Shown piece after piece: positions 14,893 through 18,591 of a DNA stretch of 64,000 nt; position 1 is the first letter of the stretch, and each line of letters starts with the position of its first letter. Made by a program: the position numbers and the translations under genes. The stretch is from NCBI RefSeq assembly GCF_029945885.1, contig NZ_JAQSDK010000002.1:248001-312000 (forward strand). The letters are read 5' to 3'. The notes beneath the pieces were generated by a model. It searched no databases and had not been told where the DNA came from. It worked only from the letters and a program-made list of their open reading frames with translations. This stretch comes from Brevundimonas sp. (GTDB lineage Bacteria > Pseudomonadota > Alphaproteobacteria > Caulobacterales > Caulobacteraceae).

Positions 14893-16263
14893 ATGACCAC
14901 ACGCTGGACCCCCGAGAGCTGGAGAACAAAGCCCGTCGTGCAGATGCCGACGGACTATCCGGACATGGCCGCCCTTCACCGGGTGGAGGACGAGCTTCGG
15001 GCGATGCCGCCGCTGGTCTTCGCCGGGGAGGCGCGCCGCCTGACGTCGAAACTGGCCCAGGTCGAGGCCGGCGAGGCCTTCCTGCTGCAGGGCGGTGACT
15101 GCGCCGAGAGCTTCAAGGAATTCTCGACCGACAACATCCGCGACACCTTCCGCCTGATCCTGCAGATGGCGGTGGTCCTGACCTTCGCCGGGCGCAAGCC
15201 GGTGGTGAAGGTCGGTCGCATCGCCGGCCAGTTCGCCAAGCCGCGCTCGTCGGGCGTGGAACAGATCGGCGACGTCGAACTGCCCAGCTATCGCGGCGAC
15301 ATCATCAACGGCATGGGCTTCACCCCGGAAGAGCGGATCCCCGACCCGCAGCGGTTGATGAAGGCCTACAACCAGTCGGCCTCGACCCTGAACCTGCTGC
15401 GCGCCTTCGCCGGCGGCGGCTATGCCGACCTGTACAACATCCATCGCTGGACCCTGGGCTTTGCCGACAACGGGGCCGGGGACAAATACCGCGAACTGGC
15501 CGAGAAGATCACCGAGGCCCTGGCCTTCATGGAGGCCGTCGGCGTCACGCCCGAAAGCCATCCGGACCTGAGCCGGGTCGAGGTCTTCACCAGCCACGAA
15601 TCCCTGCTGCTCAATGTCGAGAGCGCCCTGACCCGTCTGGACGGCGGTTCCGGCGAATGGTTCGATACCTCGGCCCATATGCTGTGGATCGGCGAACGCA
15701 CCCGTCAGCTGGACGGGGCCCATGTCGAATTCATGCGCGGCATCAAGAATCCGATCGGCGTCAAATGCGGGCCGACGATGGAGGCCGACGATCTTCTGGC
15801 CCTGATCGACGTGCTCAATCCCGACAATATCCCGGGCCGCCTGACCCTGATCGGCCGTTTCGGCCACGACAAGGTCGGCCTGCGCCTGCCGGGCCTGATG
15901 CGGGCGGTAAAGGCTGCCGGCAAGCGGGTGGTCTGGTCGATCGATCCGATGCACGGCAATACGCTGAAGGCCGCCAACGGCTTCAAGACCCGGCCGTTTG
16001 ATCGCATCCTCGGCGAGGTTCGCACCTTCATCGATGTGGCCGAGTCCGAGGGGGTCCATCCCGGCGGCGTCCATCTGGAGATGACCGGCCAGAACGTCAC
16101 CGAATGTCTGGGCGGGGCCCAGGCCGTGACCGAGGACGAACTGTCCAGCCGCTACCACACCCATTGCGACCCGCGTCTGAACGCCGACCAGGCGCTGGAG
16201 CTGGCCTTCCTGGTGGCCGAACGGCTGAAGTCCGGGCGTCAGTCCCGCTCGGCGGCCGCCTGA
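14893..16263 (+). CDS. Class II 3-deoxy-7-phosphoheptulonate synthase
   Basis: [55 protein letters not shown] typical of class II (plant-type) DAHPS. Confidence 0.96.
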
Positions 16264-16265
16264 CC

Positions 16266-16847
16266 ATGGCCGGCGACGGCCTTGCCGGAACCGGTACCGT
16301 TCCGGGCCGGGTCGCCTATCAGGGCGCGCCGGGAGCCTTCAGCCATGAAGCCTGTCTCGATCTGCGCCCGTGGGACGAGGCCGTGGCCTTCGACACCTTC
16401 GCCCAGGCCCTGGATGCGGTCCGGTCGGGCGACTGTGGCTGTGCCCTGATCCCGGTCGAGAATTCCATCATCGGCGTGGTCGAGCCCGCTGCCACCCTGG
16501 TCGCCGAGGCCGATATGGATGTGGTGGCCGAGGTCTGGCGGCCGATCCGGCTGGCCCTGATGGCGGTGCCCGGGGCCCGGCTGTCGGATATTCGCACGGT
16601 TGAAAGCCATCCGATCGCCCTGCGCCAGTGCACCGGGACCCTGGCGAGCCTGGGCCTGCGCGCGGTCGAGGGATTCGACACCGCCGGCTCGGCCCGGACC
16701 GTGGCCGAGGCCGGCGACCCCACCCGCGCCGCAGCCGCCCCTGCCCGGGCGGCTGAAGTCTACGGACTGTCGATTTTGCGCAACGATCTGCAGGATAGCG
16801 AAGATAATCGCACGCGTTTTGTCCTGTTGAGCCTCCAGACCGGTTGA
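16266..16847 (+). CDS. Prephenate dehydratase catalytic domain (no ACT domain)
   Basis: VAYQGAPGAFSHEA, ALIPVENSIIGVV, VESHPIALRQC, NRTRFVLLS; stop immediately after the PDT domain. Confidence 0.88.
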   Translation: MAGDGLAGTGTVPGRVAYQGAPGAFSHEACLDLRPWDEAVAFDTFAQALDAVRSGDCGCALIPVENSIIGVVEPAATLVAEADMDVVAEVWRPIRLALMAVPGARLSDIRTVESHPIALRQCTGTLASLGLRAVEGFDTAGSARTVAEAGDPTRAAAAPARAAEVYGLSILRNDLQDSEDNRTRFVLLSLQTG

Positions 16848-16879
16848 CGGCGCACGGATCTTGCGCGCTTGATGGGCGC

Positions 16880-16978
16880 ATGGCCCCCTCGCACGACATC
16901 GCTGCGACCTTTCTCGACCGCGTTCTCGCGGCCGACGGCCTGTATTTTGGCTTTTATGGCTTTCGATACGCCGGCTGA
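16880..16978 (+). CDS. Candidate aromatic-rich leader peptide MAPSHDIAATFLDRVLAADGLYFGFYGFRYAG
   Basis: Complete 32-codon ORF between the PDT and chorismate mutase genes; Y F G F Y G F R Y run encoded with TTT/TAT codons. Confidence 0.5.
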   Translation: MAPSHDIAATFLDRVLAADGLYFGFYGFRYAG

Positions 16979-17018
16979 GGCGTCGGGCTCCTTGCAGTCC
17001 TGACCTCCTCGCCGGCGA

Positions 17019-17036
17019 CCGTCCCTGAAGGGGCGG
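17019..17036 (+). promoter_or_regulatory. Putative attenuator hairpin upstream of chorismate mutase
   Basis: CCGTCCC-TGAA-GGGGCGG, 7-bp stem (one G-T) with tetraloop, downstream of the leader ORF; no strong U-tract. Confidence 0.35.
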
Positions 17037-17083
17037 CGGTTCCACTCGCAACCTGTCGAATCCGTCCGTTTGAAAGTCTCCCA

Positions 17084-17854
17084 GTGCCCCAGTCCACACT
17101 TCAGAAACCCCGCCCGGCCGCCCCGTCGGCCACACCGATCTCGCCCGAGCAGATGGCGCTGGCCGCCCTGCGTCACGAAATCGATCATCTCGACGACGAT
17201 ATCCTGGCCCTGTTCGAACGCCGCCTGGCCCTGGCCTCCCGCGTCGGCGCGGCCAAGGACGCCCCGACCGGCCCGCACACCAAATTGCGCCCCGACCGCG
17301 AACAGGCGGTGATGGCCCGCATGCTGGAAGCTGCCCGGCCCGAAAGCCGCGAGGCCGTCGCCGGCCTGTGGCGCGAGATCGTCGGCTGGGGTCTGGCCCG
17401 TCAGGGTCGCCTCCAGGTCCAGGTCTGGTCGCCCAGCGAGCCGGCCCGGGCCTTCGACGGGGCCCGGCTGCGTTTCGGCCGTGCCGCCGACCTGCGCATG
17501 GTGCGTGAGCCCGAGGCCGCCCTGGCCTTCGCCGCCTCCGGGGGCGGGGTCGCCGTCCTGGCCATCAATAACGACAACCCCTGGTGGGTCGGCCTGCGTC
17601 GGGAATGGGCCGAACTCAGCGTGTTCGACGGCTTCGGCAGCCCGCTGACCCCCACCGCCCTGGCCGTGGGCAAGGTCGATCCGACCGCCCTGCCGGCCGG
17701 GCGTCGCGTGGTCGTCAGCGTCGGTGGGGATGCCGGCGACGGCGGCGGAGCCCGCCGCTGGGGCCTGCATACCCACCACGGCTGGAGCCTGTCCCTGACC
17801 GAGGCCCTGCTGACGCCGGGCGATGCCGAGGGCTGCGTCGGTGCGATCGGCTGA
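17084..17854 (+). CDS. Chorismate mutase (AroQ) with uncharacterised C-terminal domain
   Basis: LAALRHEIDHLDDDILALFERRLALASRVGAAK..REQAVMARMLEAA; extra C-terminal ~150 aa. Confidence 0.85.
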   Translation: MPQSTLQKPRPAAPSATPISPEQMALAALRHEIDHLDDDILALFERRLALASRVGAAKDAPTGPHTKLRPDREQAVMARMLEAARPESREAVAGLWREIVGWGLARQGRLQVQVWSPSEPARAFDGARLRFGRAADLRMVREPEAALAFAASGGGVAVLAINNDNPWWVGLRREWAELSVFDGFGSPLTPTALAVGKVDPTALPAGRRVVVSVGGDAGDGGGARRWGLHTHHGWSLSLTEALLTPGDAEGCVGAIG

Positions 17855-17955: not shown

Positions 17956-18591
17956 ATGATCCCTGTGCCCCTGTTCCGTTGCGCCCTGGCCGCCGTCCTC
18001 GTGTCGGGGCTTAGTGCCTGTGGTGCCGTCGAAAGCGATCCCCATCGCTTCGAGAACCTGGCCAATCGTATCGCCGCCATTCCATTGGACGGAGCGCGGA
18101 CCCCGAAGACCGTGGCCTCGGCCCGGGACCTGGGCCTGAGGCCGGCCCAGCCGGCATCCCTGCGGGTCGAGGTCATGGATCCGCATGATCTGTGGGACGC
18201 CCGGGACGGCGGTCTCGACGGCCTCGTTGATCGGGCCGCCCCCGTCGTCGCCCGCGCCATGGTGCAACAGGTCTCGACCCGGGTTGCCGCCACCGCCGCC
18301 GAGGCCGGCCTGCGTCCGGCCCTGAAGCCCGCGCCGGCCGCCCGTCCGGTGCGCACCAGCCTGATCCAGCTGGGAGCCTATTCCAGTGAGGAGTCGGCCC
18401 GCATGGCCTGGGCCCGTCTGACCGCCAAGGCCGATTCCGGTGTCCTGTCCGGCCTGGCCCCGGTGTTCGAAGGGGTCAATATCGACGGCCGTCGTCTGGT
18501 CCGGCTCAAGGTCGCCGCGCCCGCCGGTGCCGCCGCCGCCGTTTGCGCCGCTGCGCGGATCGACGATCCCTGGTGTCGCCGCAACACCTGA
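17956..18591 (+). CDS. SPOR-domain lipoprotein
   Basis: Lipobox LSGLSACG; C-terminal LIQLGAYSSEESARMAWARLTAK SPOR signature. Confidence 0.8.
   Translation: MIPVPLFRCALAAVLVSGLSACGAVESDPHRFENLANRIAAIPLDGARTPKTVASARDLGLRPAQPASLRVEVMDPHDLWDARDGGLDGLVDRAAPVVARAMVQQVSTRVAATAAEAGLRPALKPAPAARPVRTSLIQLGAYSSEESARMAWARLTAKADSGVLSGLAPVFEGVNIDGRRLVRLKVAAPAGAAAAVCAAARIDDPWCRRNT

Follow-up and report, generated by a model that had tools for sequence, protein, structure and literature searches.

Results

Gene arrangement and the leader reading frame

The analysed window is a 64,000-nucleotide stretch of a Brevundimonas sp. contig that contains a class-II DAHP synthase gene, a prephenate dehydratase (PDT) gene, a short leader reading frame, a chorismate mutase (CM) gene, an FtsN-like open reading frame (ORF) and MipZ, in that order. 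The features on which the analysis of the leader depends are the following.

14893-16263: class-II DAHP synthase, the first gene of the order leading to CM
16266-16847, + strand: prephenate dehydratase, the upstream gene, 193 amino acids, matching PF00800 only
16880-16978, + strand: leader peptide ORF of 32 codons, MAPSHDIAATFLDRVLAADGLYFGFYGFRYAG and a stop, from ATG at 16880 to TGA at 16976-16978
16943-16969, + strand: aromatic cluster Y F G F Y G F R Y, the proposed sensing codons, from codon reading
16961-16975, + strand: invariant core TTTCGATACGCCGGC, codons F R Y A G
17084-17854, + strand: chorismate mutase type II (AroQ class), the putatively regulated gene (PF01817, E=1.9e-14, residues 29-107)

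The CM gene begins with GTG in the window. Its product carries a C-terminal extension of about 150 residues past CM_2 that lacks any Pfam match and is partly covered by NCBIfam PRK06034 at a score below the cut-off; the extension is also found in genera that lack the leader. The ORF at 17956-18591, between CM and mipZ, gives a weak match to FtsN of the Caulobacter type (E=4.7e-6, below the curated cut-off).

A 32-codon ORF between the PDT and CM genes, with three Phe and three Tyr residues packed into nine codons, had been proposed in a sequence-only reading, and both were found at 16880-16978 and 16943-16969, where the codons read TAT TTT GGC TTT TAT GGC TTT CGA TAC. Six Phe or Tyr residues in nine codons occur in just one of 109,542 stop-free nine-codon stretches counted over the whole window, on both strands and in all frames, and that one is the leader. 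The accompanying claim that the cluster uses TTT and TAT against the prevailing TTC and TAC stands for Phe, all of whose codons in the cluster are TTT while the five long window genes used for codon usage give a TTC:TTT ratio of 49:5. It does not stand for Tyr, since one of the three Tyr codons is TAC and the TAC:TAT ratio in those genes is 8:12.

Conservation and distribution of the leader

Conservation in relatives had been set beforehand as the test of the leader. All 30 loci of the same genus that were fetched first hold a short ORF between PDT and CM ending in FYGFRYAG or a near variant, with the aromatic run kept, and the ORF and its run were then found in 65 of 65 distinct loci from Brevundimonas and three other Caulobacteraceae genera (g13, g19 and g20), which are kin, so that these counts are not independent. 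Such conservation rules out a chance ORF. In every case the leader stands before CM, even with PDT elsewhere; in g19 and g20 it precedes CM while PDT is not upstream, and the leader thus belongs to CM.

The 65 leaders are 26-39 residues long, with Phe and Tyr making up 22.7% of residues, compared with 1.0% in the first 100 CM codons, and Trp is absent from all of them. This richness in Phe and Tyr without Trp matches the position of CM on the Phe/Tyr branch. The Phe and Tyr codons upstream of the core vary freely (TTC 76, TTT 49; TAC 86, TAT 102), and length differences in this part are multiples of three. Synonymous drift combined with such length changes gives the upstream part of the leader what appears to be the pattern of a translated peptide.

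The core behaves differently at the nucleotide level, TTTCGATACGCCGGC being identical in 61 of the 62 loci that encode FRYAG, though the CM genes of these loci use TTT for only about 3% of Phe and CGA for about 3% of Arg. When a fully degenerate FRYAG-stop pattern was run against 199 genomes of the family, all 40 matches were the same 18-mer. Three genomes encode FRHAG or FRRAG leaders, in which the core Tyr is replaced by His or Arg and most neighbouring nucleotides are unchanged; peptide arrest by FRYAG alone was set aside as unlikely on these grounds. Two g13 loci (L105 and L106) have leaders that pass the usual stop, ending FRYAGEAVVRG or FRYAGAAIVRG, with the RNA core retained. Genus g13 keeps the core but has lost both the in-frame stop at its usual position and the predicted pairing with the Shine-Dalgarno (SD) region of CM.

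A covariance model of the element found one site per genome in g13, g19, g20 and the sampled Brevundimonas genomes except G148, which indicates that the element is specific to the CM gene. G148 (L134, L288, L290), a Brevundimonas-like genome that is an outlier of the genus, lacks the leader motif and matches CM only weakly. The model found nothing in the sampled families elsewhere in the order and, among 289 genomes across the class, nothing outside Brevundimonas; the fast filters of both searches may miss weak relatives. A single model match in G175 (g32, E=0.0014) was discarded as chance, because it lacks the core sequence and neither CM nor PDT lies close to it. A pattern scan of GTDB genomes returned mostly Brevundimonas, plus scattered single matches in unrelated taxa. 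Judged by these searches, the family appears limited to Brevundimonas and a few neighbouring genera. Two genomes of g27 (L137 and L138) carry a divergent Tyr-rich leader, MRDALNLPSVSIPTTRxYYGYRSSAQFSGRQG, between a PDT without an ACT domain and a short CM, with CGAAAGCC again before the CM start; both have a second, long CM elsewhere.

RNA structure downstream of the aromatic codons

Structural alignment of the leader loci places the end of the leader and the following nucleotides in a three-part fold, with these elements.

16969-16980, + strand: helix P1, 5' strand, including the leader stop codon, from structural alignments of the leader loci
16982-17004, + strand: hairpin H2, GTCGGG...CCTGAC, within P1, with compensatory changes in 3-4 pairs
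17007-17017, + strand: helix P1, 3' strand, CCTCGCCGGCG, about 96% of cells paired and almost invariant
17019-17036, + strand: hairpin H3, CCGTCCC-TGAA-GGGGCGG, with compensatory changes in 4-5 pairs

In P1 the GC-rich end of the core and the stop codon pair with CCTCGCCGGCG 30-40 nt downstream, enclosing H2, and H3 follows. The alignment of 60 distinct sequences has 92% of its cells paired, and 10 of 25 pairs changed on both sides; the covariation score was unmatched in any of 500 shuffles, and slid controls were only 33-56% paired. Covariation support stems from H2 and H3. P1 is supported mainly by complementarity, because it hardly varies.

Of the two hairpins proposed earlier, the one at 17019-17036 lies exactly where it was placed and is real by covariation. 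The other, CCGACG (16932-16937) with CGTCGG (16981-16986), does have both strands at those places, but their pairing is not conserved among the loci, owing to variation in the upstream part of the leader, and its 3' strand falls in the conserved hairpin at 16982-17004 instead; it was dropped as a leader hairpin. The gap between PDT and CM was also considered as a remnant of a PDT ACT domain. This was rejected: across the genus PDT ends directly past its TRF motif, and leader and RNA structure occupy the gap.

The layout of a leader ORF with regulatory codons followed by hairpins is the classical one for ribosome-mediated transcription attenuation, intrinsic or Rho-dependent, in which P1, H2 and H3 together with the leader would gate the RNA polymerase that reaches CM. 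A ribosome at the leader stop would block P1, whose 5' strand contains that stop, and Rho-dependent ends carry no clear signature. Several results weigh against this reading. The remark that a clear U-tract is missing proved valid family-wide, with TTTT within 15 nt past H3 in 1 of 65 loci and no U-tract after H3 in the other 64, and a terminator scan found no intrinsic terminator on the + strand of 16880-17083. No conserved, mutually exclusive terminator/antiterminator pair was found, because H3 and P1 can form simultaneously; P1, H2 and H3 are all compatible within one fold, and a terminator/antiterminator switch was set aside as unlikely, although Rho-dependent alternatives may still apply. 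Transcription attenuation also leaves unexplained the complementarity between the leader and the CM SD described below, and it is regarded as unlikely.

The invariance of the core invites a further explanation, namely that it is an aptamer or a protein-binding site, of riboswitch or regulator type, to which the leader ORF would be secondary. The sequences TTTCGAYRCGCCGG and CCGGCGACCG are almost invariant in four genera, beyond pairing needs, and the FRHAG and FRRAG leaders lose the core Tyr codon and keep most nucleotides around it. The near-absolute invariance of TTTCGAYRCGCCGG and P1 seems to exceed what pairing and coding together need, and contact with a ligand, a protein or the ribosome may contribute to it. 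The aromatic run ahead of the core is nevertheless kept as a peptide, for which an aptamer would have no need, and a search of Rfam 15 over 16700-17300 at a permissive E-value returned no family at the gathering cut-off, with one chance-level match on the opposite strand (13.3 bits, where the cut-off is 50). A ligand or protein site as the primary function is accordingly rated as improbable.

Predicted pairing of leader codons with the chorismate mutase start region

Folding of the window predicts a second, longer-range helix, P0, between the aromatic codons and the region before CM.

16949-16968, + strand: helix P0, 5' strands GGCTTTT (16949-16955) and TTCGATA (16962-16968), from predicted pair probabilities
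17054-17078, + strand: helix P0, 3' strands TGTCGAA (17054-17060) and the CM SD region GAAAG (17072-17076), from predicted folding and a conserved element

GGCTTTT pairs with 17072-17078 at predicted probabilities of 0.80-0.86, and TTCGATA pairs with 17054-17060 at 0.72-0.90, the latter site corresponding to the ATCGAAA site of relatives. The GTG start of CM is also paired in the predicted window fold. Ahead of the CM start, most loci carry (T)CGAAAG(C/T)C, an element complementary to GGCTTTCGA of the leader and to the earlier GGC-TTT codons, and the GAAAG element is missing from the CM genes of leader-less genera.

Between the core and the 35 nt before CM, a mean of 7.9 pairs was predicted, compared with 1.8 when the downstream segment was dinucleotide-shuffled, and at least six predicted pairs between the leader end and the CM upstream region occurred in 89% of cases as against 8% in shuffles. 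Ensemble calculations gave a mean probability of 0.75 for pairing of the CM SD bases with leader codons, with values above 0.5 in 55 of 61 loci; a few mis-called CM starts (e.g. L019) lower rather than raise these figures. Predicted pairing at the CM start is absent in g13 and in the Brevundimonas locus L099, where the core is present.

When a ribosome was modelled with codons -3 to +2 around the final TTT in its A site, the tested pairing disappeared and SD openness rose from 0.22 to 0.38-0.46, about twofold. On the first aromatic codons (position -7) the modelled ribosome left the pairing largely intact, which we interpret as the second GGCTTT copy being able to take over. Since masks on early codons leave the pairing in place, only late stalls would induce CM. 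A ribosome modelled at the leader stop codon opened the pairing too, so the switch would depend on dwell time.

This last result also fits plain translational coupling, in which the CM start would open whenever the leader is translated, with no sensing of Phe or Tyr, and the aromatic residues would exist because GGC-TTT pairs with GAAAGCC. It is the GGC TTT codons that form the predicted anti-SD strand, and modelled ribosomes anywhere on the last codons, including the stop, open the pairing. Against this stand the several aromatic codons that lie outside the paired strands, the Tyr codons that are as common as those for Phe, and the upstream Phe and Tyr codons that drift synonymously with the residues staying aromatic and Trp never used. 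Coupling without sensing is considered quite unlikely.

Predicted promoter and leader translation

A candidate leader promoter, read from the sequence, overlaps the end of the PDT gene.

16844-16872, + strand: predicted leader promoter, -35 TTGACG (16844-16849) and -10-like GCTTGA (16867-16872)

Its spacer is 17 nt, its -35 element overlaps the PDT stop codon, and transcription is predicted to start at about 16879-16880. All 65 loci have TTGAC ahead of the leader, and in most Brevundimonas it sits at the stop codon of PDT. The site at 16844-16872 was not listed by a generic sigma-70 scan. The distance from TTGAC to the leader ATG is 34-36 nt in the sub-class to which the window belongs, so the leader mRNA would be leaderless there, and mostly about 70-76 nt in the other class and in g13, g19 and g20. 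We agree with the earlier remark that the SD of the leader is weak; its mRNA may be leaderless. The related Caulobacter crescentus has 375 leaderless mRNAs, and 75.4% of its genes have no SD (PMC4117421); weakness of the SD therefore does not speak against translation of the leader.

Prephenate dehydratase without an ACT domain

The PDT at 16266-16847 is the sole PDT of its genome and consists of the catalytic domain (PF00800) without an ACT domain; a single PDT was likewise found in each of the 14 genomes searched first. Across genera, ACT presence or absence was judged from sequence rather than by domain search. On that basis, complete PDT sequences of the leader genera g1, g13, g19, g20 and g27 stop directly after the TRF motif, and in 16 of 16 leader-less genera PDT runs on into an ACT-like domain. 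The PDT tree puts the ACT-less and ACT-bearing groups on opposite sides of one branch (96/88), which possibly reflects a single event, so that the correlation need not be causal. G148 has two PDT-like genes, one of them clearly ACT-less, with no leader motif and no normal CM; loss of the ACT domain without a leader therefore exists.

Discussion

The computed basis of the analysis is a translated-looking ORF, a structure with compensatory changes, SD complementarity, the lack of a terminator and the loss of pairing under a modelled ribosome. On this basis, the leader probably acts as a Phe/Tyr-responsive translational attenuator of CM, a reading to which we assign a probability of roughly two in three. 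The proposal that a leader attenuator controls CM in response to Phe and Tyr thus gains computational support, and of the mechanisms first left open, a translation-based one is favoured by the evidence. From the same results we infer leader translation, stalling that depends on Phe/Tyr charging, and the direction of control.

In the proposed mechanism, a short mRNA from the promoter at the end of the PDT gene would begin with the leader ORF. In the free RNA, the Gly-Phe/Tyr codons of the leader (GGC TTT and those that follow) would pair with the CM SD GAAAG and, in the window, with the start codon as well, while the leader end, the stop codon and the next 60 nt would fold as P1, H2 and H3 and join the two distant strands. 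CM translation would be low in this paired state. Under a shortage of charged tRNA-Phe or tRNA-Tyr, a ribosome would stall on the last aromatic codons and cover the anti-SD strand; the CM ribosome-binding site would then be freed and more prephenate made. The readout would be the dwell time of the ribosome on the last aromatic codons.

Leader peptides that respond to amino acids are mostly known as transcription attenuators with terminators, and pheL/pheM and trpL of enteric bacteria are of this kind. The CM leader resembles them in having a short ORF rich in end-product codons before a pathway gene, with hairpins after it. It differs in lacking an intrinsic terminator or U-tract, in codons that are predicted to pair with a downstream SD, and in a nucleotide-invariant core. 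The CM element is not classed with pheL and trpL because a terminator was sought and not found and because its sensing codons are predicted to hide the CM ribosome-binding site.

Translational attenuators such as ermC and cat consist of a leader ORF and a sequestered SD that is released by a stalled ribosome. A translational attenuator of the erm/cat type has also been described for ermB (PMC8274638). The CM leader shares with ermC, ermB and cat the leader ORF, the sequestered downstream SD, here computed, and possibly the release by a stalled ribosome, here modelled for the late codons. Unlike them, it serves a biosynthetic target, its presumed signal is the charging of Phe and Tyr tRNA and not an antibiotic, and its sequestering strand would be the run of sensing codons itself.

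Among conserved upstream ORFs (uORFs), uORFC-13-1 precedes aroF in Acholeplasma, where a Phe uORF of the aromatic pathway lies before an apparent intrinsic terminator, and uORFC-8-2 precedes cysS in Rhodobacterales (PMC8632094). The CM leader is likewise a conserved uORF with regulatory codons inside structured RNA; the genes, taxa and structure are different, and uORFC-13-1 has a terminator. The ilvB-II uORF of Corynebacterium is a proposed case of transcription attenuation by branched-chain amino acids, with a terminator stem and U-tract (PMC10272879). Here too a conserved uORF overlaps a conserved helix and responds to amino acids of its pathway, as the CM leader presumably does, with Phe and Tyr in place of branched-chain amino acids and neither U-tract nor terminator. 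In working principle, the CM leader appears closest to the translational attenuators of resistance genes, and in biology it is closest to pheL, the Phe uORF before aroF and ilvB-II. In the open-access literature, no description was found of a leader peptide in connection with Caulobacter, Brevundimonas, chorismate mutase or an ACT-less PDT.

An ACT-less PDT is presumably not inhibited by Phe, and we infer that the leader replaces the feedback that went with the missing ACT domain. More fully stated, one branch of the Caulobacteraceae would have lost protein feedback through the Phe-binding ACT domain of PDT and replaced it with codon sensing in the transcript of the enzyme one step earlier, by means of a translational attenuator whose sensing codons are the anti-SD strand. 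This scenario is put forward tentatively and is somewhat doubtful as a whole. In the RNA itself, the sensing codons seem to have a second role, that of masking the ribosome-binding site of the next gene. The coincidence of the leader family with loss of the ACT domain offers a concrete and testable case in which allosteric control may have been exchanged for RNA-level control at the Phe/Tyr branch point.
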